NCBI RefSeq assembly: GCF_900101265.1
Contig: NZ_FMZS01000010.1
Location: forward strand, 248,001-312,000
From: Massilia sp. PDC64
Lineage (GTDB): Bacteria > Pseudomonadota > Gammaproteobacteria > Burkholderiales > Burkholderiaceae_D
Direction of reading: 5' to 3'
Length of the DNA stretch: 64,000 nt
The notes below the pieces were generated by a model. That model was not told the DNA's origin and did no database searches. It saw only the letters and a list, made by a program, of their open reading frames with translations. Both the position numbers and the translations under genes were made by a program. Below are positions 5,430-22,596 of this stretch, piece after piece. Within the stretch, counting starts at the first letter, position 1, and each line of letters begins with the position of its first letter.

Positions 5430-5436
5430 GGCGGGC

Positions 5437-6015
5437 ATGCGCAACCGGATTCTTGCCGCATGCTTGCTGCTCGCGACCCTGGGCGGCTGCGCGCGCGACG
5501 GGGCGCCCACGGCCGCCGTGTCCCCGTTCGAGCCGCGGGCGTCGATCCAGGAAGTGATGCAGTCGATCGTCGACCCGTCGGCCGACGCGTTGTGGGAAGC
5601 CGTCAGTACGGACGTGGGCCCGAACGGCACGGAAGAGCACCAGCCGCGCACGGACGCGGAATGGCTGGCCGTACGGCGTTACGCCATCGCCCTGGCCGAA
5701 GGCGCCAACCTGCTGTCGCAGCCGCGCGCCGTCGCCCATGGCGCCGCGACGCTCGAGGATGCGCACGTGGAAGGCATCAACGACGCCGCGCAGGTGCGGG
5801 CCGCCATCGACGCCGACCCGGCCGCCTTCACGGCCCACGCGCAGGCGCTGCACGCGGCCGCGCGCGAGGCCGTGAACGCGATCGACGCGCGCGACGCCAG
5901 GCGCCTGCTGGACGCCGGCGAGCGCGTGGACGCGGCGTGCGAAGCCTGCCATACGCGCTACTGGTATCCGCACGATGTCAAGCCGGTGTGGCCGGCGAAG
6001 CTCGGCAAACCCTGA
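5437..6015 (+). CDS. Lipoprotein with a single CxxCH haem-c motif
   Basis: 192 residues. The lipobox LATLGGC predicts lipidation of Cys near residue 17, after a short hydrophobic signal. The C-terminal CEACHTRYWYP provides one CxxCH haem attachment site in a helical protein, resembling the cytochrome c' (four-helix) type with haem at the C-terminus. The ATG at 5437 is chosen over one at 5422 because it opens the signal peptide. As a membrane-anchored periplasmic cytochrome it could pass electrons to or from the two membrane proteins encoded just upstream (inference). No second haem or Met ligand is obvious. Confidence 0.82.
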   Translation: MRNRILAACLLLATLGGCARDGAPTAAVSPFEPRASIQEVMQSIVDPSADALWEAVSTDVGPNGTEEHQPRTDAEWLAVRRYAIALAEGANLLSQPRAVAHGAATLEDAHVEGINDAAQVRAAIDADPAAFTAHAQALHAAAREAVNAIDARDARRLLDAGERVDAACEACHTRYWYPHDVKPVWPAKLGKP

Positions 6016-7524: not shown

Positions 7525-8033
7525 AAGGCCTTGTTCATGTAGACGAGCGGATCCACCCGGTCGGCGGGCGCCAGATGGATACCGGTGACTTCCCCGAGGA
7601 ACAGCGTATGCGTCCCGTACGAGAACGCTTCCACGACCTTGCACTCGATCGCCGCCAGCGCGGTCGCCAGCCGTAGCGGACCGGACCCCGTCCGTTCGAA
7701 CGCACCGACCTTGAACCGCTCGTTGCGCCGGGCGGAGCTGCCGAAGATGTCGACGAGGCCGCGATCCTGCGCGGCGAGCAGGTTGACGCAGAACGCGCCG
7801 CACGCATCGATGACGGGATGCGCGGAACTCGACTGGTTCACGCAGACGAGCAGCGTCGGCGGGTCCATGCTGACCGAGACGACGGATGTCGCGATCAGGC
7901 CGGCGTGGCCATGGTCCGGGCTCCCGCTCGTCACCAGCGACACGCCCGACGCGAGCCGCCGCATGGCGTCCTTGAACAGCGATACGCGCTGTTCCAGATC
8001 GACGATGTCGGCCGGGGGATGGATGGCGTTCAT
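7494..8033 (-). CDS. Flavin reductase (FMN reductase partner of monooxygenases)
   Basis: 179 residues of the flavin-reductase-like family: LASGVSLVTSG at the N-terminus, LIATSVVSVSMDPPTLLVCV, then FCVNLLAA. These enzymes reduce FMN with NAD(P)H and hand FMNH2 to two-component monooxygenases. Here the obvious client is the SsuD-type enzyme at 15378-16541. It is the last gene of the long minus-strand operon, one base after the aldolase stop. The start at 8033 is the Met before the conserved N-terminus; upstream in-frame sequence is a shadow of the aldolase gene. The family also includes HpaC/RutF-type reductases, so the exact partner is inferred. Confidence 0.88.
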   Translation of the reverse strand: MNAIHPPADIVDLEQRVSLFKDAMRRLASGVSLVTSGSPDHGHAGLIATSVVSVSMDPPTLLVCVNQSSSAHPVIDACGAFCVNLLAAQDRGLVDIFGSSARRNERFKVGAFERTGSGPLRLATALAAIECKVVEAFSYGTHTLFLGEVTGIHLAPADRVDPLVYMNKAFHALPRTTGG

Positions 8034-8034
8034 G

Positions 8035-8718
8035 TCAACCCCGGATGGCCTTGGCCAGCTGCCACTGCTGTTCCAGCACGCCCGGTCCGAATTCCTGCGA
8101 TCCGCCGATGGTCTCGGCCAGTGCCGTGAAGTACGCGGCTTCCTCGAACAGCAGGATGTTCTTCGACACGTCGGTGATGCTGGCGCCCCAGAACGTGGCG
8201 CCGCCGTTCGCTTCCAGGATGGCGAAGTGGCCGGCATCCTCCGCCAGACGGTCGAGGATGAAGCTCGCCTCGCTCGGGCGGCGGTCGATGTAGACGGGCA
8301 GTTCGCGGATCTGCGTGAAGCGCTGCGCGGGTGCGTAGCGGATCGGCAGCACGCGGTGCGCGCCGGCCCAGGCGCCCAGGTAGGGCGTGTGCACGTGGAT
8401 CACAGCCTGCACTTCCGGGCGCTGTTTGAATACGTCGATGTAGCGTCCGCCGCCGGCCGCAACGCGCGGCGGACCTTGCAGCACCTTGCCGTCGAAGCCG
8501 AGCAGGCCTGGCTTCGCTTCCTGGTCCGGATTGAACGGATCGGCCGCGGACAGCACGACGAGCTGTTCCTGCCCAGGCACGCGCACGATGGCCTGGAACG
8601 TGTTGGTGGCGGACAGCGTACGCGTGTCCTTCAATACGCGGGCCGCGTGCGCGAATTCGCGGGCGATCGCGTCGATGGCTTCGGTGGCCGCGGCGGCGGG
8701 GAGGGTGAGGTCGGTCAT
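8035..8718 (-). CDS. Class II aldolase/adducin-family protein
   Basis: 227 residues. It carries the zinc-binding VIHVHTPYLGAWAG motif (near residue 110), an N-terminal RTLSATNTF segment and the ANGGATFWGAS region near residue 170 typical of class II aldolases. Members cleave or dehydrate phosphorylated sugars or keto acids, and several act in sulfur salvage (for example MtnB in methionine salvage). Its place in a sulfur-scavenging operon suggests processing of the carbon skeleton left after desulfurisation, but the substrate cannot be deduced. The stop lies one base before the flavin reductase start. Confidence 0.85.
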   Translation of the reverse strand: MTDLTLPAAAATEAIDAIAREFAHAARVLKDTRTLSATNTFQAIVRVPGQEQLVVLSAADPFNPDQEAKPGLLGFDGKVLQGPPRVAAGGGRYIDVFKQRPEVQAVIHVHTPYLGAWAGAHRVLPIRYAPAQRFTQIRELPVYIDRRPSEASFILDRLAEDAGHFAILEANGGATFWGASITDVSKNILLFEEAAYFTALAETIGGSQEFGPGVLEQQWQLAKAIRG

Positions 8719-8742
8719 GGTCTTCCTTTCGTTGGGGGGATG

Positions 8743-9501
8743 TCAGGCGGCGCGGGCCAGGTCGTCCTGGAACTCGGCCATCAGGCGGTCGTGGACGGCC
8801 CCGAACGCGGGGTCGCCGCGCCGGCGGGGGTACGGTAGCGGCACGTCGTGCACGCGGCGGATGCGGCCGGGGTGCTGGTCCAGCACGACGACGCGGCCGG
8901 CCAGCAGGGCCGCTTCCTCGATGTCGTGGGTGACGATCACCACTGTCAGGCCCTCGGCCTGCCACAGCGCCAGCAGCTCCTGCTGCAGGTGGGTGCGGGT
9001 GATGGCGTCGAGGGCGCCGAACGGTTCGTCCAGCAGCAGCACGGAGGGGCGGTTGACGAGCGCGCGCGCGAACGCGACGCGCTGCGCCATGCCGCCCGAG
9101 ATGGCTTTCGGGTAGGCGTCGAGGTAGTCGCCCAGGCCGAACGCGGCCAGCCGGGCGCGTACCCGTTCGCGTTTTTCCGCCGCGGGCAGCGGCAGGTCGG
9201 CGAGGGCCAGCCCGACGTTGTCGGCGAGCGTCAGCCAGGGAAACAGGCGGTGGTCCTGGAACACGATGCCGCGCCGCAGGTCGGTGCCCGCGATCGGAGC
9301 GCCGTCGTGCAGCAGGGTGCCGTCGTAGTCGGCGTCGAGGCCGGCCAGCAGGCGCAGCAGGGTCGATTTGCCGCAGCCGCTGCGGCCGACGATGGCGACG
9401 CATTCGCCGGCGGCGACCGTCAGGTCGATGCCGTCCAGGATGGTACGCGCGGCGGTGCCGCGGCCATAGGTCTTGCGCAGGTTCCGGATGGTGAGTGTCA
9501 T
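8743..9501 (-). CDS. ABC transporter ATP-binding protein, sulfonate/nitrate/taurine type
   Basis: 252 residues. Walker A GRSGCGKSTL, Q-loop FQDHRLFPWLTLADN, signature SGGMAQRVAFARAL, Walker B VLLLDEPFGALD and the switch His in VTHDIEEA are all present. It closely fits the SsuB/TauB type. It powers the two adjacent permeases (9515-10273 and the ABC half of 10270-12216) with the binding protein at 12213-13271. The gaps in this part of the operon are short, and its cytoplasmic location follows from the lack of membrane segments. Confidence 0.95.
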   Translation of the reverse strand: MTLTIRNLRKTYGRGTAARTILDGIDLTVAAGECVAIVGRSGCGKSTLLRLLAGLDADYDGTLLHDGAPIAGTDLRRGIVFQDHRLFPWLTLADNVGLALADLPLPAAEKRERVRARLAAFGLGDYLDAYPKAISGGMAQRVAFARALVNRPSVLLLDEPFGALDAITRTHLQQELLALWQAEGLTVVIVTHDIEEAALLAGRVVVLDQHPGRIRRVHDVPLPYPRRRGDPAFGAVHDRLMAEFQDDLARAA

Positions 9502-9514
9502 GGTGGTCCTTCGT

Positions 9515-10273
9515 TCATTGGTCGCGGGTATCGCGCCAGCGCAGCAGCCAGGCGCCGGCCCGTGCGGCCGCGTGGTTCATCGCATAGCCCAGCAGGCCGA
9601 TCGCGGCGACGCAGACGAGCACCGTGTCCATGCGCGCGCCGGCTTCCGCCATCAGCATGCTGTTGCCCAGGCCGGGGCCCGACGCGAACAGCAGTTCGCT
9701 GGCGACGGCGGCGATCCACGCCACGGCCAGCGCCTGCGACACGCCGCTCAGGATCGCCGGCATCGCGGCCGGCAGCGCCAGTTTCAGCAGGCGCGTGCGC
9801 GCCGACAGTCGCAGCACCTGCGCCACCTCGAGGTAACGCCGTTCCAGCTTCGCGGCACCTTCGTGGGCCTGCAGCAGGCAGGGCATGAACGCGGCCAGCT
9901 GCACGACGAACAGGCGCGCCGTCTCGCCCCGGCCCAGCCACAGGCCGATCAGCGGGATCCAGGCGAACAGCGGCACCTGGCGCAGCGCGTGGAACAGCGG
10001 ACCGAGGATGCGGTCGACGGGGCGGCACAGCGCCAGCAGCAGGCCGACGGCGATGCCGATCAGGGATCCGCTCAGCCAGCCGAAGGCCGCGCGGCCCAGG
10101 CTCGCGCCGACGGCGCCCGTGAGTTCGCCGCTGTCCCACAGCTCACGCGCGGCGGCGCCGATCTGTTGCAGCGGCGGGAAGATGCTGGCGTACAGGTCGC
10201 CCCGCTGCGATTGCAGCTGCCACGCGGCCAGCAGCAGCACGGGCAGCACCCAGCCTTTCCAGCGCGCGCTCAT
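9515..10273 (-). CDS. ABC transporter permease, SsuC/TauC type
   Basis: 252 residues with about six membrane helices. The cytoplasmic loop LKLALPAAMPAILSGVSQAL is the EAA-type coupling motif for the ATPase. The start at 10273 overlaps the stop of the upstream MFS-permease fusion (ATGA). In-frame sequence further upstream is only a shadow of that gene. SsuC-type permeases usually homodimerise; here a second permease is fused to an MFS protein, so the transporter may be a heterodimer of two different permeases. Confidence 0.92.
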   Translation of the reverse strand: MSARWKGWVLPVLLLAAWQLQSQRGDLYASIFPPLQQIGAAARELWDSGELTGAVGASLGRAAFGWLSGSLIGIAVGLLLALCRPVDRILGPLFHALRQVPLFAWIPLIGLWLGRGETARLFVVQLAAFMPCLLQAHEGAAKLERRYLEVAQVLRLSARTRLLKLALPAAMPAILSGVSQALAVAWIAAVASELLFASGPGLGNSMLMAEAGARMDTVLVCVAAIGLLGYAMNHAAARAGAWLLRWRDTRDQ

Positions 10274-12216
10274 GCCGGCCTCCACGCGAGCAGGCGGCGC
10301 TCGGCCAGTTGCAGCAGCCGGTCGAGCGCGTAGCCGATCAGCGCGGTCAGCACGATGCAGAGCATGACCTGGTCCATGCGGAACATCTGGCGGCCGAATT
10401 CCATCAACTGGCCCAGGCCCTGTTCGGCCGCGATCTCCTCGGTCAGCACGAGCAGCATCCACGAGCGCGCGAGGCCCACGCGCAGGCCCGTCAGCAGCGC
10501 GGGCGTCGCGGCCGGCAGCACGAGGCTGCGCAACAGGCGCACGGGCCGCAGGCGGTACATGGCGCCCACCTCGAACCAGGCGCCGGGGATGTTCAGCACG
10601 CCGTCGCGCACGGCCAGCGCCACCGTGAAGAACACGCCCTTCGCGACGACGAGGATCTTGAGCGTCTCGCCCACGCCGAAGAACAGGATGAACACGGGGA
10701 TCAGGGCCACGGTCGGCAGGTGGCGCAGGATCTCGAACAAGGTGCCGCAATAGTCGCGCACGTTGCGCGACAGGGCCAGCGCGATGCCGAACGCGATGCC
10801 GGCCGCCGCGCCGGCCGTGAAGCCCCCGCCCAGGCGCACGAGGGACAATTGCAGGTGTTGCTGCAGTTCGCCGTTGTCCCATAAATCCACGCCGGCCTGC
10901 CACACGGCCTGCGGCGTGGGCAGCATCTGCGGCGGCACCCAGCCGGAACGCGCGAGCGCTTCCCAGCCGGCCAGCAACAGCGCGGCCGGGACGAGGGCGG
11001 ACAGCGCGACGCGTGTCGTATCCGCATCTCCTGCGCGCGCCAGCTGGCGCCGGCGGCAGAACAGGGCCAGTGCGATCACGACGGGAATCGCGAGCAGGAA
11101 CGCCTGCTGCAGCGCGATCCAGTGCGACAGCGCGCTGCCGGCCATCGCACCGGCGAAGAAGCCCGCCATCGACGCCGTGTTGAACAGGCTGGAGATCTTG
11201 CTCTTCGCGACCGGGTGGCGGCTCAGCTGCTCCATGTTGATCAGGTGGATCAGCGCGCAGCCGGCACCCAGCAGCACGGCGCCCAGCGCGAACGGCCAGA
11301 AGCCGTCCGCCAGGCCGAGCACCGCGAGGCCGGCCACCGCCAGCGCGACGCTGGCGCCGTAGCGCTGCCCGGACGTCAGGCCGCGCACGAGGTAGCCGAG
11401 CCCCAGCAGCGCCGCGACGGACGCGACGCCGTCGATCATGACGAGCTGCACGGCGTCGCCCCGGTCCAGGTGCAGCACCTGCAGCGCGATCACGACGACG
11501 AACGCGCCGTACAGCGCGCGCACGGCGGCGGACACGAATTCGACGAGGCAGCTTTCGCCGATCTCCACGTTGGCCAGCATGGCGCGAATCTCGCGCAGCG
11601 CCGTCGTGCGCGCGCCGCCCGCGGCCGGCGCCGGCTCGTCCGGCAGGAAAGTCTGGGCGAACACGCCCATCGCGCCGAAGCTGGCGGCGACGAGCACGAA
11701 GCTCCAGCCATAGCCCAGCAGGCTGCTGAGGGCATTGGCTGCGAACGGGCCTGCCAGCCCCATGCCGACCGACAGCGCGGCGCGGTACCAGCCCGCCTTG
11801 GCGACGCCGATGCGCGGCAGCTGGTCGAGGAAGGCACTGTTCATCGATACGACGCGGAACGGGATGCACAGGCCGATCAGGAGCTGCGTGAGCGCGATCC
11901 AGTACCAGGCTTCGGTCAGCGGCAGCACGAGGTTCAGCAGCAGCGGGCCGATGCTGGCAAGGCCGTACACGCGGCGCGCGCCGAAGCGGGCGATGAGGAA
12001 ACCCGCCGGCAGGGTCAGGAGGGCCATGCCGAGCGATTCCATCGCCGAGATGATCCCGACCTGGGCCGCGCTGGCGCCGACGTGCAGGGCGTACAGCGTC
12101 GTCACCAGCTTGGCCATGCCGATGGTCGCGCCGCTGACCACGGCCAGCAGCACGAACGACAGGAGGAAGCGCACGGTGCCCGATGCCGGGCGGCGGGCCA
12201 GGACCACGGTATTCAT
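10270..12216 (-). CDS. MFS transporter fused to an ABC permease (single polypeptide)
   Basis: 648 residues in one uninterrupted frame. Residues 1 to about 392 form a 12-helix major-facilitator domain (MESLGMALLTLPAGFLIARF near 60; GAGCALIHLINMEQLSRHPV near 320). After a short basic linker (RRRQLARAGDADTTR, near 388-402), residues 403-648 form an SsuC/TauC-type ABC permease with the EAA loop RSLVLPAATPALLTGLRVGL. No start codon with a ribosome-binding site is evident at the junction, and both ends overlap neighbours by ATGA, so the fusion looks genuine. I know of no characterised protein with this order. The MFS half may export a product or sulfite while the ABC half imports (inference). Confidence 0.9.
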   Translation of the reverse strand: MNTVVLARRPASGTVRFLLSFVLLAVVSGATIGMAKLVTTLYALHVGASAAQVGIISAMESLGMALLTLPAGFLIARFGARRVYGLASIGPLLLNLVLPLTEAWYWIALTQLLIGLCIPFRVVSMNSAFLDQLPRIGVAKAGWYRAALSVGMGLAGPFAANALSSLLGYGWSFVLVAASFGAMGVFAQTFLPDEPAPAAGGARTTALREIRAMLANVEIGESCLVEFVSAAVRALYGAFVVVIALQVLHLDRGDAVQLVMIDGVASVAALLGLGYLVRGLTSGQRYGASVALAVAGLAVLGLADGFWPFALGAVLLGAGCALIHLINMEQLSRHPVAKSKISSLFNTASMAGFFAGAMAGSALSHWIALQQAFLLAIPVVIALALFCRRRQLARAGDADTTRVALSALVPAALLLAGWEALARSGWVPPQMLPTPQAVWQAGVDLWDNGELQQHLQLSLVRLGGGFTAGAAAGIAFGIALALSRNVRDYCGTLFEILRHLPTVALIPVFILFFGVGETLKILVVAKGVFFTVALAVRDGVLNIPGAWFEVGAMYRLRPVRLLRSLVLPAATPALLTGLRVGLARSWMLLVLTEEIAAEQGLGQLMEFGRQMFRMDQVMLCIVLTALIGYALDRLLQLAERRLLAWRPA

Positions 12217-13271
12217 TGCGCGGCGCCGTTCCAGTACGTTTTCAGGCCGAAGCGGTCCAGCGCCGACTGCACGTAGCGCGGCTCGAACGTGCCCACGATG
12301 TCGACGTCCTTGGCGACGAGGCCGGACCTGCGCGCGTACGCGGCCAGGTCGCGGTAATGGTCGGCCAGCGCCGGCGTGAACAGGGGCGACGCGCGTTCCT
12401 TCCAGCTGCCGGCCGTGCCCTCGTAGTCGCGCCGGATCACGCTCTCGGGAATGCCGGCCGCAGCGCCAATGCGGATCACCTGCTCGCGGTTCGCCTCGTC
12501 GGACGACCAGCGCGCGTTCTTGACGAAGGCGTCGACGACGAGCTGCGTCAGTTCCGGATTGGCCGCGATGAACGCCTTGTCGCCCCACAGCTCGGCGCGC
12601 ATCTGCCAGCTGCGCGGCGCCTGCTTGCTGTCCCAGACGATCTTGCCGAGGCCCTTGTCGACGAGGAGCCACGCGTCCGACAGCGTGAAGAACGCGTCCA
12701 CGCCACCGGCGCCCAGCGCCGCCGCGCCGGCCTGCGGGTTCAGGTTCACCACCTTCACGTCCGACAGCTTCATGCCGTTCGCCTCCAGCAGCTTGACGAA
12801 CGGGTATTCCCACGGCCGGCCGCGCATCAGCGCGACGCGCTTGCCCTTCAGGTCCTTCACGCTCTTCACGGTGGACTTGGCCGGCACGACGAGGTAGGTG
12901 TTCGAGCTGGCGGACGGCACGAGCAGCCGCGTGGGCACACCGGCCGCGTTCAGGATGATCGAGGGCAGGTCGCCGTAGGCGGCGAAGTCGATGCTGTGGT
13001 TCGAGAACGCCTCGTTGACCTGCGGGCCCACGGCGGTCGTCGACACCGGCACCCACGTCAGCTTGACGCCGCGCTTCGCGAGCTCGCGTTGCAGCTCGCC
13101 GTCCTGGTTGATGACGCCGGCGCCGCCGGCGAAGCTCTGCTTGCCCGCCGTCGTGTAGGCGACGACGGCGATGCGCACTTCGCGCGGCGCCGCCAGGGCC
13201 GCGTTGGCGAACGCGAGGCTGGCGAACAGCAGGGCCGCGAACGGACGGGCGAAACGGGTAAGTAAAGTCAT
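12213..13271 (-). CDS. Periplasmic substrate-binding protein of the sulfonate-type ABC transporter
   Basis: 352 residues. A clear signal peptide (ALLFASLAFANAALAAP) precedes REVRIAVVAYTT, then IDFAAYGDLPSIILNAAGVP and VKDLKGKRVALMRGRPWEYP, the layout of SsuA/TauA-like binding proteins. It starts at 13271, just before the signal sequence, and overlaps the next gene by four bases. It is the only exported member among the binding-protein-like genes here, which helps to show that the two following homologues (13282 and 14331) are cytoplasmic enzymes rather than binding proteins. Ligand unknown; an organosulfur compound is expected from context. Confidence 0.92.
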   Translation of the reverse strand: MTLLTRFARPFAALLFASLAFANAALAAPREVRIAVVAYTTAGKQSFAGGAGVINQDGELQRELAKRGVKLTWVPVSTTAVGPQVNEAFSNHSIDFAAYGDLPSIILNAAGVPTRLLVPSASSNTYLVVPAKSTVKSVKDLKGKRVALMRGRPWEYPFVKLLEANGMKLSDVKVVNLNPQAGAAALGAGGVDAFFTLSDAWLLVDKGLGKIVWDSKQAPRSWQMRAELWGDKAFIAANPELTQLVVDAFVKNARWSSDEANREQVIRIGAAAGIPESVIRRDYEGTAGSWKERASPLFTPALADHYRDLAAYARRSGLVAKDVDIVGTFEPRYVQSALDRFGLKTYWNGAAQ

Positions 13272-13281
13272 GCGCGGTCCT

Positions 13282-14328
13282 TTATGCGGCGATGGCGAGG
13301 CGGTCGAGCACCGTGTGGTCGACCCAGGCGGCGACGTCGAAGTCGTGCGGCAGGAAGCCCCAGGCGAGGAGGAAATCCTTGAAGTCGGCGAGCGCCGCGA
13401 TCGCATCCGGCGCGAGGCCGGTCACGAGCTTGCGATGCACGTCCTTGCCGTAGGCGAGGCGCAGCCACTCGTGCGTGGAACCGGTCTCGCGGCCCAGGAA
13501 GTCGAGCACGTCGTGCGGGTGCTCGCGGCCCCAGTCGTCCACGTCGGCCACGCGGCGCAGGAAGCGCGCGACGAGGTCAGGGCGCGCATTGATGAAGGCG
13601 CGGTCGACCGTCAGCGGGCGCGGCGAGCCGTTGTTGACGCGGACCTTCGGGTCGGGGTGAAAGCCGATGTCGGTGACGACGCGGGCGCCGATCAGGTGCG
13701 CGAGTTCGAGGCCCAGCGAGCCCTTGGCATAGATGGCGTCGACGTCGCCGCGCAGCAGGGCGCGCGTCTCGGCCGCGTACAGCGCTCGGCTCGTGGCGCT
13801 GGCCGGGTTGCTGAAGAACTGGCGCAGCTGCGGGCTGGCCGCGGCGCCGACGTCCTGCGCCGGCACGTCGACGATCTCGACGTCGCGTGCGCCGAGGCCT
13901 TCCAGGCCCAGCGCGCCGAGGAAGCCGCGCAGCGCGGCGGCGCGGAAGATGTCGATCCGCTGGCCGGGGCGGCTCGGCAGGCCGATGCGCCGGCCGCGCA
14001 GGTCGCGTACGGTACGGATGCCGGATTGGGGCAGGGCCAGGATCAGCTGGCTTTCGTCGATCCACGTCAGGCCGATCACGCGCGTGTCCGCGCCCTGCGA
14101 ACGGGCCCACAGCGCGGGGATGCTGCCGCCCTGGCGGAACGAGTGCTGCAGCGTGTGGTCGATGTGCGACGCGCGCAGGCCGGCGTTGCGGCCGTCCTGC
14201 AGCGTCTCGATGGCGATGCCGTCCGGTCCGAATTCCTGTTCGAACCAGCCCAGGTGGGCGGCGATGCCGACCGGCGTCGGCACCGGGCAGCGCGTGTACC
14301 AGATGGTTTCTACGATGGGCGTCGTCAT
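13282..14328 (-). CDS. DszB-like sulfinate desulfinase candidate (copy A)
   Basis: 348 residues with no signal peptide, opening with IWYTRCPVPTPVGIA. Against DszB (2-(2'-hydroxyphenyl)benzenesulfinate desulfinase) the catalytic residues align: Cys27, His60, Arg70 and Gly73 of DszB correspond to Cys14, His55, Arg65 and Gly68 here, and the His-to-Arg spacing of ten residues is identical. The fold is shared with sulfonate-binding proteins, so automatic annotation would call it an ABC binding protein. The absence of an export signal argues against that. It would cleave C-S of a sulfinate to release sulfite. Two bases separate it from copy B. Confidence 0.8.
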   Translation of the reverse strand: MTTPIVETIWYTRCPVPTPVGIAAHLGWFEQEFGPDGIAIETLQDGRNAGLRASHIDHTLQHSFRQGGSIPALWARSQGADTRVIGLTWIDESQLILALPQSGIRTVRDLRGRRIGLPSRPGQRIDIFRAAALRGFLGALGLEGLGARDVEIVDVPAQDVGAAASPQLRQFFSNPASATSRALYAAETRALLRGDVDAIYAKGSLGLELAHLIGARVVTDIGFHPDPKVRVNNGSPRPLTVDRAFINARPDLVARFLRRVADVDDWGREHPHDVLDFLGRETGSTHEWLRLAYGKDVHRKLVTGLAPDAIAALADFKDFLLAWGFLPHDFDVAAWVDHTVLDRLAIAA

Positions 14329-14330
14329 GG

Positions 14331-15368
14331 TCAGGTTCCGGTGCGTTGGTGGAGCGGCGCGTCCAGCGCCGCCAGCGGGGTCGGGTCGATCCAGTCGTCG
14401 ACGCTGAAGTCGGCCGCGAGGAAGCCGTGGCGCAGCAGGAAGTCCTTGTAGGCCTTCAGGCCGGCGATCGAAGCCGCGTCCAGGTTCGTCTGCAGGCGCT
14501 CGTGCACGTCGGCGCCGTAGCCGTAGCGCACCCATTCGCTCGACGCGTCCGTCTCGCGGCCGATGTAGGCCACCGTCTCGCGCGGGTGCGCGGTGGCCCA
14601 GCGGCCGGCTGCGACGACCTGCCCGAGGAAGCGCGCGACGAGGTCGGGGCGCTGCTCGATGAAGTGCTGGTCGACGGTCAGGGTGCGCGGCGTGCCGTTG
14701 CCGTTGCGGACGAGCGGGTCCGGGTGCGCGCCCAGGTCGACGACGAGGTGCGCCGCCAGCATGTGCAGGGTCTGCACACCCAGCACGCCCTTGACGAAGA
14801 TGGCGTCGACGTCGCCGCGCAGCAGGGCCGCGACTTCGCTTTCGTAATGGTGGCGCCGCGGTCCGCCGAACGGGTTCGGATACGCCGGCGTGGCATCGTC
14901 GTCGGTGCGGACGGCGTCCGTCACGTCCACCAGTTCCACCTCTGCCAGGCCGATGCCGTCCAGCGCCAGCGCCGATTCGTAGGCCTTCAGCGCGGCCGCG
15001 CGCTTGAAATCGATGCTGACCGCGTGGCGCGTGAGACCCAGCCGGCGGCCGCGCAGGTCACGCGAGGCTTCGATGCCGGAGCCGGGCAGGGTGATGATGC
15101 CCTGGAATTCGTCCGTCCACGACAGGCCGATGACGCGCGTGGCGCGGCCGCGCGAGCGGGCCCAGATCGCCGGGATGTTGCCGCCCTGGCGGAACGAGTG
15201 CGCCAGGTGGTGGTCGAAGTGCGATTCGCGCACCTCGGCTTCCACGTTGTCCTGCAGCGATTTCAACTGGATGCCGTCCGGCGCGAACTCGCGCGCCAGC
15301 CAGCCTTCCTGTACGGCGATGCCCAGCGGCGTGGGTACGGGGCAGCGGGTGTACCAGATCGTGTCCAT
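14331..15368 (-). CDS. DszB-like sulfinate desulfinase candidate (copy B)
   Basis: 345 residues, no signal peptide, opening with DTIWYTRCPVPTPLGIAV. Cys9, His50, Arg60 and Gly63 match the DszB catalytic Cys27-His60-Arg70-Gly73, with the same ten-residue His-Arg spacing (HFDHHLAHSFRQGG). It shares most motifs with copy A (DLRGRR, LLRGDVDAI, GAHPDPLVRNGNGTPR) but differs in the central loop near residues 150-175, which may shape the substrate pocket. It lies directly downstream of the SsuD-type monooxygenase gene, the order expected if the monooxygenase makes a sulfinate that this enzyme desulfinates (inference). Confidence 0.8.
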   Translation of the reverse strand: MDTIWYTRCPVPTPLGIAVQEGWLAREFAPDGIQLKSLQDNVEAEVRESHFDHHLAHSFRQGGNIPAIWARSRGRATRVIGLSWTDEFQGIITLPGSGIEASRDLRGRRLGLTRHAVSIDFKRAAALKAYESALALDGIGLAEVELVDVTDAVRTDDDATPAYPNPFGGPRRHHYESEVAALLRGDVDAIFVKGVLGVQTLHMLAAHLVVDLGAHPDPLVRNGNGTPRTLTVDQHFIEQRPDLVARFLGQVVAAGRWATAHPRETVAYIGRETDASSEWVRYGYGADVHERLQTNLDAASIAGLKAYKDFLLRHGFLAADFSVDDWIDPTPLAALDAPLHQRTGT

Positions 15369-15377
15369 GCCGTCTCC

Positions 15378-16541
15378 TTACGCGGCGCGTGCGGTGAGCT
15401 GGCGCTTGGCCGCCTGCGGCACGAGCGGCAGCACTTCCTCGCCGACGCGGTAGGCCTCTTCCAGGTGCGAATTGCTGGCCAGGATGAAGTTCGAGACACC
15501 GATGTCGACGTACTCGGCCAGGCGTTCCGCGACCTGTTCATGGCTGCCGACCAGCACGCAGCCCGGGCCGCCCCGGATCGCGGACATGCCGGCCCAGACG
15601 TTGCGGCCGACGACCAGGTCGTCGAACGCGGTCGAGCCGCCCGTCAGGTTGCGCTGGCGCTGGGCGCCGACGGATTCGCTGGCGCCGCGAGCGCGCGCGC
15701 CGCCCGTGAAGCCGAAGTTGCGCGTGGCGTCGTCCACCGTGGCGTACATCTGGCGCAGCTCGGCCCAGGCCTGCTCCTCGGTCTCGCGCGCCAGCACGTC
15801 GATGCGCATGCCGAAGCGGATCTCGCGGTCGACCTTCAGCGCGTCGAAGGCACGGCGGGCGGCGTCGACGACTTCGCGCTGCTTCGCCAGCGGCTCGCCC
15901 CACGTCAGGTGCACGTCGGCGTGGCGCGCGGCCACCCGCATCGACGCGTCGCTGGCGCCGGCCAGGTACACGCGCGGCACGTCCTGGCGCACGAGCGGCT
16001 CGAGCAGGCCGCCGCCCTGCACCTGGTAGTGCCTGCCTTCGTAGTCGAACGGCGCGCCGGCCGTCACGCCGCGCACGACGTCGAGGAATTCCTCGGTGCG
16101 GGCGTAGCGCTCGTCGTGGCCGTTGAAGTCGCCGTAGCCGCGCTGGGCGTTCGGGTCGCCGCCGGAAATCACGTTCCACTCGACGCGGCCGCGCGAGATG
16201 CGCTGCAGGCTGGCCGCCATCTGCGCCGCGTAGGCGGGCTGGATGAAGTGCGGCTGCAGGGCGATGAGCAGGCGCAGGCGGCGCGTCTCGCGCGCCAGCG
16301 CGGCGGCCGTCACCCACGGCTCGTCGGTGAAGCGGAAGATCGGGATCAGCGCACCGTGGAAGCCGTTGATCTCGGCGGCGCGCGCCACCTGCGACAGGTA
16401 GTCGATGTAGCCGAAGCCGTCGTCGTCCACGCGCGGGGCGACGCGCGCGCGGGACGTGTTCCATTCGCCGCGGGTGTGTTTGTCGTGGGCCTTGCGGCCG
16501 TCGCCATGCATCGGCAGGCGCCAGAGGAATTCGATGCTCAT
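15378..16541 (-). CDS. ssuD: FMNH2-dependent alkanesulfonate monooxygenase, SsuD-like
   Basis: 387 residues of the bacterial-luciferase-like family, close to SsuD in length (381 in E. coli) and motifs: EFLWRLPMHGDG at the N-terminus, LRLLIALQPHFIQPAYAAQM, VEWNVISGGDP, VHLTWGEP, ALVGS-type GCVLVGSHEQVAERLAEY and SNSHLEEAYRVGE near the end. SsuD-type enzymes use FMNH2 and O2 to release sulfite from sulfonates; relatives act on sulfones. The first ~40 residues hold a basic insertion (HTRGEWNTSRARV) not typical of SsuD. It is first in the segment controlled by the internal sigma-54 promoter at 16575-16590, with GGATCC-type Shine-Dalgarno AAGGAT before the ATG. Confidence 0.88.
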   Translation of the reverse strand: MSIEFLWRLPMHGDGRKAHDKHTRGEWNTSRARVAPRVDDDGFGYIDYLSQVARAAEINGFHGALIPIFRFTDEPWVTAAALARETRRLRLLIALQPHFIQPAYAAQMAASLQRISRGRVEWNVISGGDPNAQRGYGDFNGHDERYARTEEFLDVVRGVTAGAPFDYEGRHYQVQGGGLLEPLVRQDVPRVYLAGASDASMRVAARHADVHLTWGEPLAKQREVVDAARRAFDALKVDREIRFGMRIDVLARETEEQAWAELRQMYATVDDATRNFGFTGGARARGASESVGAQRQRNLTGGSTAFDDLVVGRNVWAGMSAIRGGPGCVLVGSHEQVAERLAEYVDIGVSNFILASNSHLEEAYRVGEEVLPLVPQAAKRQLTARAA

Positions 16542-16570: not shown

Positions 16571-17980
16571 CTATCGCAGGTTTCGTGCCAGCGCGGAGGC
16601 GGCATCTGGTGGTGCTGCGGCAGCAGTGCGTGGGGTCGCTGGTGCTCCAGCACCACCCCCGGCGCCGAACTGGTGGCTCACGACCACGTGCAGCAGCGCG
16701 CGGGCGCCGACGGGCAGCGCGGCGTCGTCCACGACGAATTGCGGCGAATGGTTCGGCGCCGCCTGGCCGGCCGGGATGCTAGGCGGCGTCACGCCCAGGC
16801 CAAAGAAGAAGCCGGGGACGGCGCGCGAGTAGTAGGCGAAATCGTCGGCGGCATAGCTGCCGTTGGCGTCGACCCGTACGGGGCGCTCGCCCGCCACGTC
16901 GCGCAGCACGGGCAGCAGGCGGTCCACGAGCGCCGGGTCGTTGGCGCCGGGCGGATAGCCTTCTTCCCACGTGAAGCTCACGGTCGCGCCGCTGGCGGCC
17001 GCGATCGACGTGGCCGTGCGTTCCATGCGCTCGATCGTGTCCGCCCGCTGCGCCACGGCCGGCGTGCGCAGCGTGCCTTCGAGCAGCACGCTGTCGGGCA
17101 GGATGTTCGTACGTACGCCGCCGGCGATCTTGCCGATGGTGATGACGGGTGCGGGGTGGCGTCCCAGGTCGGCCTGGCGGCTCGGGATCGTCTGCCAGGC
17201 CAGCGCGATCTGCGCGGCCACCGTCACCGGGTCGACGCCATACCATGGCATCGCCGCATGCGACTGGCGGCCCTGTACCTTGACGTGGAACGTGTCGCTG
17301 CCCGCGGTGACGCGTTCGCGGCTGACGGACAGGCTGCCCGACGGTCCCGGCCCCACGTGCAGGCCGAAGAACGCGTCCGGTTTCGGGTCGAGCAGGCCCT
17401 GCTTGACGAGCAGCGCGGCGCCGCCTTCCTCGCCCGCCGGCGCGCCTTCCTCGGCGGGCTGGAACACGAAGACGACCGTGCCGGGCAGGCTCTCCTGCGC
17501 CTGCGCCAGCAGCTGCGCCACGCCCAGCAGGATCGCCACGTGGGCGTCGTGGCCGCAGGCGTGCATGACGCCGACCTCGCGGCCTTCGTACGTCGCCTTC
17601 GCCGTGGAGGCGTACGGCAGGCCCGCGGGCTCGGTCACGGGCAGCGCGTCCAGCTCGGCGCGCAGCGCGACGCGCGGTCCCGGCAGGCCGCCGCGCAGCA
17701 CGCCGACGACGGCCGTGTGCGCGAGGCCCGTCCTCACCTCCAGGCCGAAGCGGCGCAGCGCGTCCGCCACGAGGGCGCTCGTGCGGAATTCGCGGTTGCC
17801 CAGTTCCGGATGCTGGTGGATGTCGTGGCGCCAGGCCGTCAGCGCGGGGGTGACGGCGGGCAGGGCGACATCGAGCCGGGCCAGCAGGGCGTCGCGCGGG
17901 CTGTCGGCCGCGTGGACGGCGCCGCCGGCCAACAGCGCCAGCGCGCAGGCCAGCCGGCGCAGGGTCGGCATCGGCGTCAT
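16571..17980 (-). CDS. Exported M20-family amidohydrolase (peptidase D)
   Basis: 469 residues. A signal peptide (LACALALLAGGAVHAAD) is followed by an M20D amidohydrolase: WRHDIHQHPELGNREF, LRAELDALPV, MHACGHDAHVAILLG, FQPAEEGAPAGEEGGAALL and NHSPQF near the end, giving the usual metal ligands. The family hydrolyses N-acyl or amide bonds of amino-acid conjugates. Export suggests it frees an amide-linked part of a substrate in the periplasm before uptake. The family normally ends shortly after LLHVVVSHQF; here about 35 extra low-complexity residues (Ala/Gly/Pro) are encoded by DNA that also contains promoter and enhancer sites. The start overlaps the TonB receptor stop (ATGA). Confidence 0.9.
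   Translation of the reverse strand: MTPMPTLRRLACALALLAGGAVHAADSPRDALLARLDVALPAVTPALTAWRHDIHQHPELGNREFRTSALVADALRRFGLEVRTGLAHTAVVGVLRGGLPGPRVALRAELDALPVTEPAGLPYASTAKATYEGREVGVMHACGHDAHVAILLGVAQLLAQAQESLPGTVVFVFQPAEEGAPAGEEGGAALLVKQGLLDPKPDAFFGLHVGPGPSGSLSVSRERVTAGSDTFHVKVQGRQSHAAMPWYGVDPVTVAAQIALAWQTIPSRQADLGRHPAPVITIGKIAGGVRTNILPDSVLLEGTLRTPAVAQRADTIERMERTATSIAAASGATVSFTWEEGYPPGANDPALVDRLLPVLRDVAGERPVRVDANGSYAADDFAYYSRAVPGFFFGLGVTPPSIPAGQAAPNHSPQFVVDDAALPVGARALLHVVVSHQFGAGGGAGAPATPRTAAAAPPDAASALARNLR
16575..16590 (-). promoter_or_regulatory. Internal sigma-54 promoter for the monooxygenase-desulfinase-ABC segment
   Basis: On the minus strand TGGCACGAAACCTGCG. The -24 element is perfect and the -12 element is CTGCG at exact spacing. 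It ends 34 bases before the ssuD-like ATG, the same gap as at the 4455 and 20428 starts. It lies inside the last codons of the M20 hydrolase gene. Confidence 0.68.
16640..16686. promoter_or_regulatory. Paired enhancer-like palindromes upstream of the internal promoter
   Basis: TGGTGCTCCAGCACCA (16640-16655) is a perfect instance of TGGTGS-N4-SCACCA. TGGTGGCTCACGACCA (16671-16686) matches with one mismatch. They lie 50-100 bases upstream of the sigma-54 promoter at 16575-16590 and within the 3' end of the M20 gene. Confidence 0.55.
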
Positions 17981-20157
17981 CAGAACTTCACGCTGGCCGT
18001 GAGACCGAAGCTGCGGCCGTCGCCGAACAGTTGCGGCGTGTTGCCGTAGGCCGGGATCAGCGACAGTTTCAGGTACGTCTTGTCGAATGCGTTGTGGACG
18101 TACGCCGTGACGCTGTACTTGTCCCCGGCCGGCACCCACACGACGCTCGCGTTGGCCAGCGTATAGCCGTTCTGCCACAGCAGGGGGCTGGTCTGGCGCG
18201 TGGCGCTGAAGTATTCGCGGCTGCGGTAGGTGAGGTCGCCGCGCAGGTCGACCGAGCCGCCGCCGACGGCGAAGCGGTAGTCGGCGCCCACGTTCGCGGT
18301 GCGGCGCGGCGCGCGCGCGAAGGCATTGCCGACGGCCGTCGGGACGTTGGCGAATTCGTCGAAACGGGTGCGCAGCAGGCCGACGTTCGCATAGGCGCCG
18401 AAGTTGTCGGTGAACTGGCTCTTGAGTTCCAGTTCCAGGCCGTCCGACTTGCCCTGGCCCGCGTTCGACAAGGTGGACACGGTGCCGCTGCCCGTGGCGG
18501 CCGGCGCCAGCGCGAACACCTGGATGTCCTTGTAGTCGTAGTGGAAGGCGGTCGCGTTGAACACGAGCGCGCGGTTCAGCCATTCGCTCTTGAGGCCCGC
18601 CTCGTACGACGTCAGGTATTCCGGCGTGACGGTGCGGAACGCGGCGTCGGTGAGGGCCTGCGTGTTGTAGCCGCCCGAGCGGAAGCCGCGCGCCACGCGG
18701 GCGAACACGCGGGCGTTGCGGTTGATGCGCCACACGGGCGAGATGTCCCACGTGGGCGCGTGCCACGTGTTCGACAGGTGCTGGTTCAGGTTGCGCGTGA
18801 GGCCCACGACCGGCTGCGTCCACCACGCGGCCGTGTTGGCGAACGCGAGACCCGTGCCCGTGTAGCCGACGAGGTCCAGTTCCTTCTTCTCCTGCGTCCA
18901 GCGCAGGCCGCCCGTCAGGTCGAACTGGTCGCTGACCTGCCACGTGACGCTGCCGAACAGCGCGCCGCTCGTCGTCTTCTGCGTGAAGGTGGTGGTCTCG
19001 TAGGCCGTCGTCGCGCGGCCCGGCAGCGTCGCTTCCTGGCCGGACGAGCCGAGGTTTTCGCGGAACAGGTGCAGGCCCGCGATCCAGCTGACCTGCTGCT
19101 GCGGGGACGACGTCAGGCGCAGCTCCTGCGACCACTGGCCGCTGGACAGGCGATTCCGCGTGCGGTCGAGTTCCTGCGCCGTGTAGTCGCCGTCGCCGAA
19201 CAGGGTGCGCTCGACGTGTTCGTACGCGGTGATCGACGTCAGTCCGATGCCGCCGCCCAGTGCCCAGTTGCCCGTGAGGCCCGCGCCGGCGGTCTGGATC
19301 GCATCGCTGTTGTCCGCGTTCAGCGCCACCGAGCGGCGGTCGCCGCCGGCCACGCTCCACGGGTTGCCGCCGCCGTTGTAGTGGCGGCCGTGCACGTTCA
19401 GCAGCACGTCGCCGTCCGCCGACGTCTTGACCAGCAACTGGGCGCGCACGGCGTTGTCCTCGGTGCTGCGGAAGCGCTTGCCCGTGGCCCGGTTCGTGAC
19501 CTCGCTGTCGGTCTCCTCATGGTAGACCGAGAGGCGGCCCGCCACGGTGTCCGGCACGAGCGCGCCGCCGCCGGCCGCTTCGACGAGGCGGCTGCCGTGG
19601 TTGCCGAAGCCGGCGCGGGCATAGCCGCCGTTCTGGAAGTCCGGGCGGCGCGACAGGATGTTGATGGCGCCGCCGATCGTGTTCTTGCCCCACAGGGTGC
19701 CCTGCGGGCCGCGCAGCACTTCCACGCGCTGCAGGTCGAACAGCGGCGTGCCCTGGCCGAACACGCTGTTGATATAGACGTCGTCGACGTAGAAGCCGAT
19801 GGGGCTGAGGGACGTCGTCGACGGATCGTTGCTGCCGATGCCGCGCAGGAACCAGCGCGGACGCTCGCGGCCCTCGGTCGACTGGCCGGTGAAGTTCGGG
19901 ACGTAGTGCGTGATGTCGTTGATGACCCGCAGCTCGTCGGCCTGCACGGTATCGCCGCCGATGACGCTGACGGCGACCGGTGCCTGCTGGATGCCGACGG
20001 CGCGCCGCGTGGCCGTCACGACGACCTGCTGCACTTCGGCGCCTTCCGCCGCCGCGGCATCCGCCGGGGCCGGTGCATCGTCCGGCGCGGCCGCGTGCGC
20101 GGTCAGGTTGAAAGCCAGGGCGATCCCCAGTACGATCTTGTTCTTCTTGAATGCCAT
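17980..20157 (-). CDS. TonB-dependent receptor of the organosulfur operon
   Basis: 725 residues. Signal peptide (KIVLGIALAFNLTAHAA), a TonB-box-like EVQQVVVTATRR, plug with PVAVSVIGGD, WFLRGIGSNDP, GFYVDDVYINS and VEVLRGPQGTLWGKNTIGGA, then a barrel ending in an aromatic Phe (SFGLTASVKF). The style is that of FecA/CirA-type iron-unrelated receptors common in compound uptake clusters. The ATG at 20157 is chosen because the signal peptide starts there. It is first in the eleven-gene operon ending at 7494, with a sigma-54 promoter 57 bases upstream, so it probably carries the sulfur-containing substrate across the outer membrane. Confidence 0.93.
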   Translation of the reverse strand: MAFKKNKIVLGIALAFNLTAHAAAPDDAPAPADAAAAEGAEVQQVVVTATRRAVGIQQAPVAVSVIGGDTVQADELRVINDITHYVPNFTGQSTEGRERPRWFLRGIGSNDPSTTSLSPIGFYVDDVYINSVFGQGTPLFDLQRVEVLRGPQGTLWGKNTIGGAINILSRRPDFQNGGYARAGFGNHGSRLVEAAGGGALVPDTVAGRLSVYHEETDSEVTNRATGKRFRSTEDNAVRAQLLVKTSADGDVLLNVHGRHYNGGGNPWSVAGGDRRSVALNADNSDAIQTAGAGLTGNWALGGGIGLTSITAYEHVERTLFGDGDYTAQELDRTRNRLSSGQWSQELRLTSSPQQQVSWIAGLHLFRENLGSSGQEATLPGRATTAYETTTFTQKTTSGALFGSVTWQVSDQFDLTGGLRWTQEKKELDLVGYTGTGLAFANTAAWWTQPVVGLTRNLNQHLSNTWHAPTWDISPVWRINRNARVFARVARGFRSGGYNTQALTDAAFRTVTPEYLTSYEAGLKSEWLNRALVFNATAFHYDYKDIQVFALAPAATGSGTVSTLSNAGQGKSDGLELELKSQFTDNFGAYANVGLLRTRFDEFANVPTAVGNAFARAPRRTANVGADYRFAVGGGSVDLRGDLTYRSREYFSATRQTSPLLWQNGYTLANASVVWVPAGDKYSVTAYVHNAFDKTYLKLSLIPAYGNTPQLFGDGRSFGLTASVKF

Positions 20158-20213: not shown

Positions 20214-20229
20214 AGCAATCGGCATGCCA
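20214..20229 (-). promoter_or_regulatory. Sigma-54 promoter for the long organosulfur operon
   Basis: Minus-strand TGGCATGCCGATTGCT fits TGGCAYGN-N3-TTGCW with correct spacing, 57 bases upstream of the TonB receptor start and 84 bases from the nearest palindrome at 20313. Confidence 0.73.
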
Positions 20230-20378: not shown

Positions 20379-20394
20379 TGGCCTGGAATTTGCA
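20379..20394 (+). promoter_or_regulatory. Sigma-54 promoter for the Cys-to-Ser DszB homologue
   Basis: TGGCCTGGAATTTGCA fits TGGC-N8-TTGCA at exact spacing, with a perfect -12 element. It ends 34 bases before the ATG at 20428. Confidence 0.72.
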
Positions 20395-20427: not shown

Positions 20428-21465
20428 ATGATGAAGCCGCACACGATTTCCTTCGCCCGCTCGCCCGTTCCCACGCCGCTGGGAATCGCCGTCCACCTGG
20501 GTTGGCTGAGCGGGGAGACGTCCTCCGACGGGGTCGCGATCAAGTCGCTGCACGAACTGCATCCGGGCGAACGCGCGCACAGCGACTACACGCTGCGCAA
20601 TTCGCTGCGCCAGGGCGGCAGCGTGCCCGCCATCTGGGCCAGGGCGCGCCAGGCGTCTACGCGCGTGATCGGCCTGTCGTGGGTCGACGAATCGCAGCTC
20701 CTGATCACGCGGCCCGAGTCGGGAATCGCGCGCGTGACGGACCTGCGCGGGCGCCGCATCGGCCTGCCCGCACGGCCCTACGAGGTGATCGACATCTTCC
20801 GCGCCACAGCGCTGCGCGGCATCCTGAACATCCTGGCATCGGAGAACCTCGCCTTGTCCGAGGTGGAACTCGTCGACATCGCGGCCGCGCGCGTGCCGGT
20901 GTCCGACCCGGGCCAGTCGCCGGCACCCGATGCGCGCGCGCTGGCGCCGCTGCTGTGGAACGAGTACGCGGCCGAATGCGCGGCGCTGCTGCGCGGCGAG
21001 GTCGACGCGATCTACGTGAAGGGCGCGCACGGGCTCGAGGCGGCGCACCTGATCCGCGCGCGGACGGTCGTCGACATCGGCTTCCACCCCGACCCGCTCC
21101 TGCGCAACAACAACGGCACGCCGCGGCCGCTGACCGTGAATGCCGAGGTGCTGGCGCAGCATCCGGATCTCGTCGCCGGCTTCCTGCAGCTGGTGGCGCA
21201 GGCGGGCGACTGGGCGCGCGGCCATCCGGACGAAACGCTGCGCTACGTCAGCGAAGAGACGGCGTGCGCGGAGGAGTGGGTCCACCTGGCGTATGGGGAA
21301 AAGCTGCACCGCCACCTCGGTCTCGACCTGCATCCGCAGTCGATCCAGGCGCTGGCCGCGTTCAAGGACTTCCTGCTGGAGTGGAAGTTCATCGACCAGG
21401 ATTTCGACGTGTGGGACTGGATCGATCCGGCGCCGTACCGGCTGGTCACGTCGCGCGCGCGCTGA
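20428..21465 (+). CDS. DszB homologue with Ser in place of the catalytic Cys
   Basis: 345 residues without a signal peptide. It aligns along its length with the two desulfinase candidates (SPVPTPLGIAVHLGW, HSDYTLRNSLRQGG, DLRGRRIGLPARP, LLRGEVDAIYVKGAHGLE, DIGFHPDPLLRNNNGTPR). His51, Arg61 and Gly64 are kept, but the position of DszB Cys27 is Ser12 (FARSPVP). A Cys27Ser change inactivates DszB but leaves substrate binding, so this protein may bind the sulfinate without cleaving it, for example as a sensor or carrier. It has its own sigma-54 promoter and faces the SfnR-like regulator gene tail to tail, 21 bases apart. An alternative is that Ser acts as nucleophile on another substrate. Confidence 0.8.
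   Translation: MMKPHTISFARSPVPTPLGIAVHLGWLSGETSSDGVAIKSLHELHPGERAHSDYTLRNSLRQGGSVPAIWARARQASTRVIGLSWVDESQLLITRPESGIARVTDLRGRRIGLPARPYEVIDIFRATALRGILNILASENLALSEVELVDIAAARVPVSDPGQSPAPDARALAPLLWNEYAAECAALLRGEVDAIYVKGAHGLEAAHLIRARTVVDIGFHPDPLLRNNNGTPRPLTVNAEVLAQHPDLVAGFLQLVAQAGDWARGHPDETLRYVSEETACAEEWVHLAYGEKLHRHLGLDLHPQSIQALAAFKDFLLEWKFIDQDFDVWDWIDPAPYRLVTSRAR

Positions 21466-21486: not shown

Positions 21487-22596
<1,110 letters not shown>

Follow-up and report, generated by a model that had tools for sequence, protein, structure and literature searches.

Two candidate cytoplasmic DszB-type sulfinate desulfinases in a putative sulfur-scavenging operon of Massilia sp. PDC64

The Locus and Its Two DszB-Like Genes

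The locus was analysed in a window of 64,000 nt (the whole stretch of DNA examined) of Massilia sp. PDC64 contig NZ_FMZS01000010.1, and positions were counted from the start of the window. Two genes, encoding proteins A and B, were present on the minus strand at 13282-15368, as a preliminary description of this DNA had stated. On this strand the gene of an SsuD-like flavin monooxygenase came first, followed by B and then A, each a few bases further on. Downstream of A were, in order, the genes of an SsuA-like binding protein, an MFS-ABC fusion, a second permease, an ATPase, an aldolase and a flavin reductase. Upstream of the SsuD-like gene were those of an M20 amidohydrolase and a TonB receptor, from which the gene of a third paralogue, protein C, diverged (Table 1). 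On sequence comparison and predicted models, A and B are probably (about 0.72) cytoplasmic DszB-type sulfinate desulfinases on the SsuA/NMT1 fold, acting in a sulfur-scavenging operon. Both had been described as starting at the motif YTRCPVP. The motif was near the N-terminus, but neither protein started exactly there, and a few residues preceded it (MTTPIVETIWYTRCPVP, MDTIWYTRCPVP).

Similarity of Proteins A and B to DszB

In a sequence search of the PDB, DszB (2de2) was the top match of both A (E value 6.5e-16) and B (4.1e-21). After the DszB entries, the next match was the SsuA-type 3e4r (0.0013) for A and the Thi5-type 4esw (0.0019) for B. The residues Cys27, His60, Arg70, Gly72-Gly73 and Ser25 of DszB corresponded to C14, H55, R65, G67-G68 and T12 in A, and to C9, H50, R60, G62-G63 and T7 in B. 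The claim that both proteins keep the Cys, His, Arg and Gly (Gly73; G68 in A, G63 in B) of DszB was accordingly borne out, and the spacing of ten residues between His and Arg was likewise unchanged. The match of residues was more than chance, because the E values of the PDB search were so low. Furthermore, A and B possessed one cysteine each, the equivalent of Cys27. The identity between A and B was 52-54%, and that to DszB in the structure alignments was 26-29%.

Structure prediction and comparison with DszB had been proposed as a check, and both models fitted DszB best. The models had predicted local distance difference test (pLDDT) scores of 93.2 (A) and 92.5 (B). Aligned to DszB with VIA-align, A gave a Z of 32.6 and a root-mean-square deviation (rmsd) of 3.5 with 323 aligned, and B gave a Z of 32.0 and an rmsd of 2.7 with 303 aligned, whereas the best SsuA entry, 3uif, reached a Z of 25.6 for A and 25.2 for B. 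The top-scoring chain for both was 2de3, the sulfinate-bound C27S form of DszB, and Foldseek, run for B only, again placed DszB first. The helix bearing the His was formed in the models (A 49-57, B 44-52), the best fit being to a ligand-bound entry. Sequences and models together are strong grounds for regarding A and B as DszB-like in their working.

Matches to general family models were also obtained. The scores of A, B and C for Pfam NMT1 (31-39 bits) exceeded the gathering score of 20.5, which marks the superfamily only. For the NCBIfam SsuA model TIGR01728, A (96.2 bits), B (75.6) and C (70.3) all fell under the cut-off of 163.5, as did the leader-bearing binding protein P0004 (124 bits).

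Conservation across the Family

The alignment comprised 166 rows: 162 family rows, A, B, C and DszB. The rows were drawn from 71 genome loci, genomes of the same taxonomic family and seven plasmid loci. The 71 loci resulted from merging 80 matches to two peptide patterns, one allowing Cys or Ser and the other covering Arg-Gln-Gly-Gly. L001, L002, L003, L018 and L030 (the window itself), L046 (a short contig), eight profile matches under 100 bits and six fragments were dropped, and 168 matches were reduced to the 162 family rows. These rows include up to 12 residues ahead of the matched stretch, possibly untranslated codons. Counts of 164 members exclude DszB and the mycobacterial plasmid DszB (L111).

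Among the 166 rows, Arg70 and Gly72 were kept in all, Gly73 in 165, His60 in 143 and Cys27 in 139; the full catalytic set occurred in 134 of the 164 members. No other cysteine was present in 109 of the 139 Cys27 rows, and the next richest cysteine column held 11. In the 94 rows not fetched by motif, which were told apart by position only so that a few may also carry a pattern match, Cys27 was kept in 74 and Arg70 in 94. Thr occupied the Ser25 position in 133 rows having Cys27 and His60. According to an excerpt of PMC6100217, the hydroxyl of DszB Ser25 bonds His60, C27S is inactive, and the activity of H60Q is lowered about 17-fold. The chance that a 347-residue protein has no other cysteine was 0.07, at a rate taken from 15 hand-picked window genes, which makes a single protein slight evidence and leaves the argument to the family as a whole. 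Retention of the cysteine by chance was rejected on its family-wide conservation.

In the SsuA tree, a 100/100 branch set 14 SsuA-like binding proteins from the same loci apart from the 25 rows of the family and DszB, with DszB standing beside or inside the family. A second tree held 76 rows under 80% identity. Going by these sequences, the family is a Pseudomonadota group that clusters with DszB and not with binding proteins of the SsuA type. It is plausible that A and B differ in substrate, and their separate tree groups coexist in several genera.

The His60 position was occupied by Tyr in L053 7446-8615 (+) and L056 7525-8643 (+) and by Asp in L109 5345-6520 (+), with Cys27 kept; the L056 and L109 members were on long branches. 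On L109, the Sphingobium plasmid pTomTYG65a, three family genes (5345-12314) were clustered with a Fis-type regulator and monooxygenases, and the record calls all three monooxygenase, one of them named soxB.

At E 1e-30 the family was present in 12 of 195 genomes of the same taxonomic family, 7 of 300 of the order and 7 of 398 of the phylum, the own genome included. Twelve other genomes of the genus were among those listed, and none had the family at this threshold; the locus is therefore patchy, and it may have been gained by transfer. In the own genome no fourth close copy was found, the next matches past A, B and C being at E 7e-5 or weaker.

Cellular Location

The export leader was assessed as the best 12-residue hydropathy ahead of the motif with a threshold of 1.8, a proxy in place of a trained signal-peptide predictor. 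By this measure the reported lack of a signal peptide in A and B held, the values being 0.42 and -0.23, respectively, compared with 2.33 for the binding protein at 12213-13271, whose export leader had also been reported correctly. None of the 162 family rows, many of them near-copies from one genus, showed a hydrophobic leader. Of the 51 SsuA-like rows from the same loci, which include the window's own binding protein and re-fetched copies, 50 did; A, B and C of the window were scored apart. These values point to a cytoplasmic location of A and B, which forms part of the reading given above and shares its probability.

Gene Organization of the Operon

The features of the locus are listed in Table 1. 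The SsuD-type monooxygenase and the flavin reductase that had been noted in the operon were both found. The start of the flavin reductase is the ATG at 8033, taken from a longer frame, and the search was run on 7494-8030. The start of gene C was set at the ATG at 20428; a GTG at 20320 would give a longer frame. No receiver domain was found by Pfam in the sigma-54 activator.

Table 1. Features of the Massilia sp. PDC64 locus, in window positions.
Feature	Position	Strand	Basis or remark
Protein A (P0001), DszB-type desulfinase-like, 348 aa	13282-14328	-	Sequence match, predicted fold
Protein B (P0002), DszB-type desulfinase-like, 345 aa	14331-15368	-	Sequence match, predicted fold
Protein C (P0003), third paralogue without catalytic cysteine	20428-21465	+	Sequence comparison
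SsuD-like luciferase-type (LLM) flavin monooxygenase	15378-16541	-	
SsuA-like binding protein (P0004), hydrophobic leader	12213-13271	-	
MFS domain fused to ABC permease domain, 648 aa	10270-12216	-	Pfam
ABC permease (BPD_transp_1)	9515-10273	-	Pfam
ABC ATPase; top NCBIfam model aliphatic sulfonate ATPase, under its cut-off	8743-9501	-	
Class II aldolase/adducin family protein	8035-8718	-	
Flavin reductase	7494-8033	-	
M20 family amidohydrolase, apparent export leader	16571-17980	-	
TonB-dependent outer-membrane receptor	17980-20157	-	
Sigma-54-dependent transcriptional activator	21487-22596	-	Convergent with gene C
Sigma-54-type -24/-12 site TGGCATG-N4-TTGCT	20214-20229	-	Exact match, 57 bp upstream of TonB-receptor start
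Weaker sigma-54-like site, one mismatch	20379-20394	+	34 bp upstream of gene C

A frame of Duganella flavida (L036 12051-14015, +) was of similar length to the MFS-ABC fusion and resembled it at the N-terminus. Elsewhere in the window, the adjacent frames 43943-44902 and 45020-45979 (minus strand) had near-identical N-termini, apparently a tandem duplication.

Sulfur amino acids were scarce in A, B and the aldolase (0.4-0.9%, against about 3.0% for 15 other genes of the window) but not in the flavin reductase (3.9%).

The Monooxygenase and the Route to Sulfinate

The nearest PDB matches of the window monooxygenase were MsuD (E 6.3e-80) and SsuD (E 2.9e-73), and its score for the NCBIfam SsuD equivalog was 309.3 bits, under the cut-off of 518.2. 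The residues C54, H228 and Y331 are important in SsuD of Escherichia coli. The window enzyme had T, D and N in their place, and so did its 24 closest relatives, one of which ends before the last site. In a separate SsuA/SsuD-type locus of the own genome (L004, contig 16), the monooxygenase kept the C/R/H/R/Y of SsuD, which makes that of the window a divergent second type.

The preliminary description had proposed that the monooxygenase turns sulfonate into sulfinate. This step was a misfit, for MsuD/SsuD converts sulfonate directly to sulfite, as the accessible part of PMC8234197 reports, and a sulfonate therefore needs no desulfinase. In the same part of that paper SfnG makes sulfinate from dimethyl sulfone, and by analogy a sulfone-like precursor giving sulfinate would fit better than a sulfonate.

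Gene Neighbours in Related Genomes

On pSymA of Sinorhizobium meliloti, two family genes flanked a gene of the acyl-CoA-dehydrogenase type, and an NtaA/DmoA-family (DszA-type) monooxygenase gene was nearby; the record names both family proteins ABC transporter substrate-binding protein. The NtaA-family assignment passed its cut-off (381 vs 279.7 bits). For the acyl-CoA-dehydrogenase-type protein, SfnB appeared only among the weaker NCBIfam matches, and in its PDB list the methanesulfinate monooxygenase 6u76 came 22nd and the DszC-type 5xb8 came 42nd. The label "DszC-like" is loose for this protein because of the weak SfnB match and the rank of 5xb8. The family gene of Robbsia (L104) had beside it an SfnB/DszC-like gene (232 bits, under the cut-off) and then an NtaA-family gene (400 bits, above it). 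Directly upstream in Burkholderia sp. L094 and Paraburkholderia L098 was an LLM gene; its best model was SfnG (199 and 194 bits, missing the cut-off of 383), with RutA and NtaA next and SsuD much weaker. As judged from these matches, the family occurs with sulfone-type, DszA-type and SsuD-like enzymes. The DszA- and DszC-type partners were not found in the window operon, which has the SsuD-like enzyme only; a looser version of the pair occurred in L107 and L104.

The neighbours were counted only for genes that had 5 kb of sequence on either side, which gave 90 genes from 61 loci. An LLM or acyl-CoA-dehydrogenase-type gene was within 5 kb in 66 cases and an ABC ATPase in 43; a monooxygenase without an ATPase was found in 41, an ATPase without a monooxygenase in 18, and neither in 6. 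The rows are non-independent, with some seeds drawn from L107 and the window, and binding-protein genes were close by in many Burkholderia loci, with a permease-like frame in L043. For these reasons the count is weak against a binding-protein function.

In Burkholderia L043, an ExbB/TolQ-type gene at 8816-9532 (+) separated the B-type gene from the A-type gene and preceded that of the TonB receptor. Its position suggests a dedicated energy supply for uptake.

Regulation

The exact sigma-54 site (20229-20214) was in the gap between the divergent genes. The pattern was not enriched in the window: 9 sites with at most one mismatch were found against 6.4 expected, and at least 9 occurred in 18 of 100 shuffles. 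Two of the 9 matched exactly, including the one in the divergent gap, for which position alone counts. Among 24 loci with a strong activator match, sites near the TonB-receptor frame were found in 6 (the window, L036, L068, L053, L056 and L079) and in none of the other 18. The site in the divergent gap and the adjacent activator gene together suggest, by analogy, control like that by SfnR. SfnR is a sigma-54 activator for dimethyl sulfone use in Pseudomonas, according to titles in the reference list of PMC13352529.

Protein C and Natural Cysteine-Less Relatives

Protein C was absent from the preliminary description. It was 52-55% identical to A and had Ser at Cys27 and Ala at Ser25, with His60 and Arg70-x-Gly-Gly kept. 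Ser27 was found in 27 rows, 24 of them in the C clade and three from Methylovorus. The support of the C clade was 100/99 in the 76-row tree, in which six representatives stood for the 24 rows and the remaining Ser27 rows were assigned from near-copies. The clade fell in one 100/99 group with A-type proteins. Its residues at 25/27/60 were A/S/I in 19 rows, A/S/H in 3 (the window, Duganella and one metagenome-assembled genome, MAG), A/S/S in 1 and E/S/H in 1. His60 was thus lost in 20 of the 24, and Arg was retained in all. Residues 25, 27 and 60 change together while Arg is kept, which matches the residues thought to act jointly in DszB.

Among the copies of the window, Duganella and the MAG, the ratio of nonsynonymous to synonymous substitution rates (dN/dS) was 0.16-0.17 for C, 0.24-0.34 for A and 0.12-0.21 for B. 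For three Burkholderia copies of C it was 0.07-0.13. By these ratios, purifying selection acts on the C clade as it does on A and B. In loci of Duganella, Burkholderia, Paraburkholderia and Jeongeupia, genes of the C clade had A- and B-type genes nearby. The Methylovorus copies with Ser27 (L073 11123-12181, L077 11854-12888 and L078 11874-12896, all minus strand) kept Thr25 and His60, and they represent a second, separate loss of the cysteine. Judging from its residues, C is most likely a non-catalytic relative.

Interpretation

The preliminary description had placed cytoplasmic desulfinases here, outside the dibenzothiophene system. Homology, predicted fold, lone cysteine, missing leader and phylogeny all argue for DszB-type, cytoplasmic proteins rather than binding proteins, and that part is well supported; the sulfonate route does not fit. 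We infer the following course for the reaction, the origin of its sulfinate, the parts played by transport and by C, and the induction by sulfur starvation. In sulfur starvation, the TonB receptor, the SsuA-like protein and the ABC transporter would import an organosulfur compound under the sigma-54 activator. Supplied by the flavin reductase, the luciferase-type monooxygenase would then oxygenate the carbon beside the sulfonyl group, giving a sulfinate (R-SO2-). A or B would bind the sulfinate at Arg/Gly-Gly, the lid would close and bring the His in, and the lone cysteine would cut the C-S bond to give sulfite for assimilation. C would most likely bind a ligand without turnover, as a partner or a sensor.

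Several observations weigh against this proposal. DszB segments 130-138 and 151-157 were absent in more than 80% of the 164 members, A and B included, and a second His stood at DszB Tyr63 in 157 of them; DszB's own substrate is therefore unlikely for the family. Segment 151-157 contains Trp155, which we take to be a pocket residue of DszB. The two lid segments likely mark the biphenyl-specific enzyme rather than the reaction, and the substrate of A and B is probably not a biphenyl. Since the lid segments and the operon partners differ, A and B are not claimed to be DszB itself. The calculated mechanism of DszB is an electrophilic aromatic substitution (excerpt of PMC6100217), a path not available to an alkyl sulfinate. 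In addition, a long branch joined DszB in the 76-row tree, and 55 of 55 family members scanned matched the SsuA model TIGR01728. The window monooxygenase also kept the sulfonate-binding Trp/Arg/Arg (W196, R226 and R297 of SsuD; W195, R225 and R296 of MsuD). The idea that it is not a sulfonate enzyme, drawn from the lost C54, H228 and Y331, was weakened by these direct binders, and the MsuD study, in the part available, treats the His as a second-shell residue (PMC8234197). Because Trp/Arg/Arg are kept, the enzyme may make sulfite directly, leaving A and B without its sulfinate. Should it act on sulfonates, the sulfinate for A and B would have to come from elsewhere, for example by import.

A and B could instead be cysteine-dependent enzymes that use the same fold for another reaction, such as decarboxylation or the C-S cleavage of a compound other than a sulfinate. 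The fold is reused by Thi5 (hydroxymethylpyrimidine synthase), MqnD and 4,5-dihydroxyphthalate decarboxylase, several enzymes were among the structure matches, and the family differs from DszB in its lid and second conserved His. We nevertheless consider this unlikely: all four DszB catalytic residues occur together in A and B, the match to DszB is clearly the best, and in relatives the genes alongside encode monooxygenases of the sulfone or sulfonate type.

It is more improbable still that A, B and C are all cytoplasmic, non-catalytic sensors or carriers for sulfonate or sulfinate. A and B retain Cys, His and Thr25, whereas the C clade changes two or three of these positions together, as expected if they are catalytic. 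The conservation of C without the cysteine makes a non-catalytic role in the family probable in itself, and gene C adjoins the sigma-54 activator gene.

Ordinary ABC-transporter binding proteins, exported by an unrecognised route or otherwise anchored, were rejected as very improbable: the NMT1 and SsuA models match and an SsuBC-type transporter is in the operon, but A and B miss the TIGR01728 cut-off by far (P0004 misses it too), neither they nor their relatives have the leader that SsuA-like rows carry, the tree splits 100/100, a leader-bearing binding protein is already encoded in the operon, and the cysteine is kept in a cysteine-poor protein.

Cytoplasmic sulfinate desulfination thus remains the preferred function of A and B. 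If it is correct, some genes of soil and plant-associated bacteria annotated as ABC transporter substrate-binding protein need a new function, and the genes to rename include those on sinorhizobial symbiosis plasmids. Sulfinate desulfination would then be a direct route to sulfite beside MsuC/MsuD. The natural Cys-to-Ser relatives mirror the laboratory C27S mutant and are ready controls. A wider proposal is tentative, and we would sooner doubt it than rely on it: the mislabelled family might desulfinate natural, non-thiophene sulfinates in the cytoplasm of Burkholderiales, sphingomonads, methylotrophs and rhizobia, the second His might admit non-aromatic sulfinates, and at least two Cys-to-Ser offshoots might serve as ligand-binding or sensor proteins.

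Comparison with Known Systems

To our knowledge, DszB is the only well-studied desulfinase on a binding-protein-like fold. It has been studied on a fossil-fuel compound. A and B resemble DszB in the fold, Cys27, His60, Arg70-x-Gly-Gly, the single cysteine, the lack of a hydrophobic leader and the flavin monooxygenase neighbours, and their Thr keeps the hydroxyl of DszB Ser25. They are unlike it in lacking the two lid segments, in having His for Tyr63 and Leu for Gln65, and in an SsuD-like operon partner instead of DszA plus DszC. The set of three paralogues, one without the cysteine, is also unlike DszB. SsuA and NMT1-type binding proteins share the overall fold with A and B (best Z about 25); SsuA differs in being exported, and the SsuA rows of the structure alignment were 13-20% identical.

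The literature search covered few subscription journals, and among the matches listed no study of the family outside thiophene desulfurisation was found, only labels. In the parts of the sources available, DszB relatives close to ssu-type genes were mentioned either by label (PMC8557817) or in connection with the desulfurisation of benzothiophene (PMC3868597). A Rhodoferax that degrades sulfolane reportedly lacks dszB (PMC6395730), and peptide matches are reported to show that Chelatococcus makes the 4S enzymes, DszB among them (PMC4839641). The excerpts of PMC5373536, PMC6015842, PMC7661421, PMC11852219 and PMC12168087 held nothing against or beyond the desulfinase interpretation.

The desulfinase BdsA, from the benzothiophene operon of Gordonia terrae C-6, is described as having low similarity to the 4S enzymes, and its operon has an FMNH2-dependent and an alkanesulfonate-type monooxygenase with sulfonate-transport genes near (excerpt of PMC3868597). 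BdsA is actinobacterial, unlike the window family, and the likeness is one of description. IGTS8_peg4802 of Rhodococcus qingshengii, near ssu-type genes, is labelled SsuA/DszB and listed among the proteins changed in dibenzothiophene culture, apparently upregulated; this is a table label in PMC8557817. The SfnG/MsuC/MsuD route, as far as the available part of PMC8234197 describes it, resembles the window in its LLM monooxygenase, its flavin reductase and a sigma-54-type activator gene nearby. In that route MsuC oxidises sulfinate to sulfonate, whereas a desulfinase of the window could free sulfite directly.

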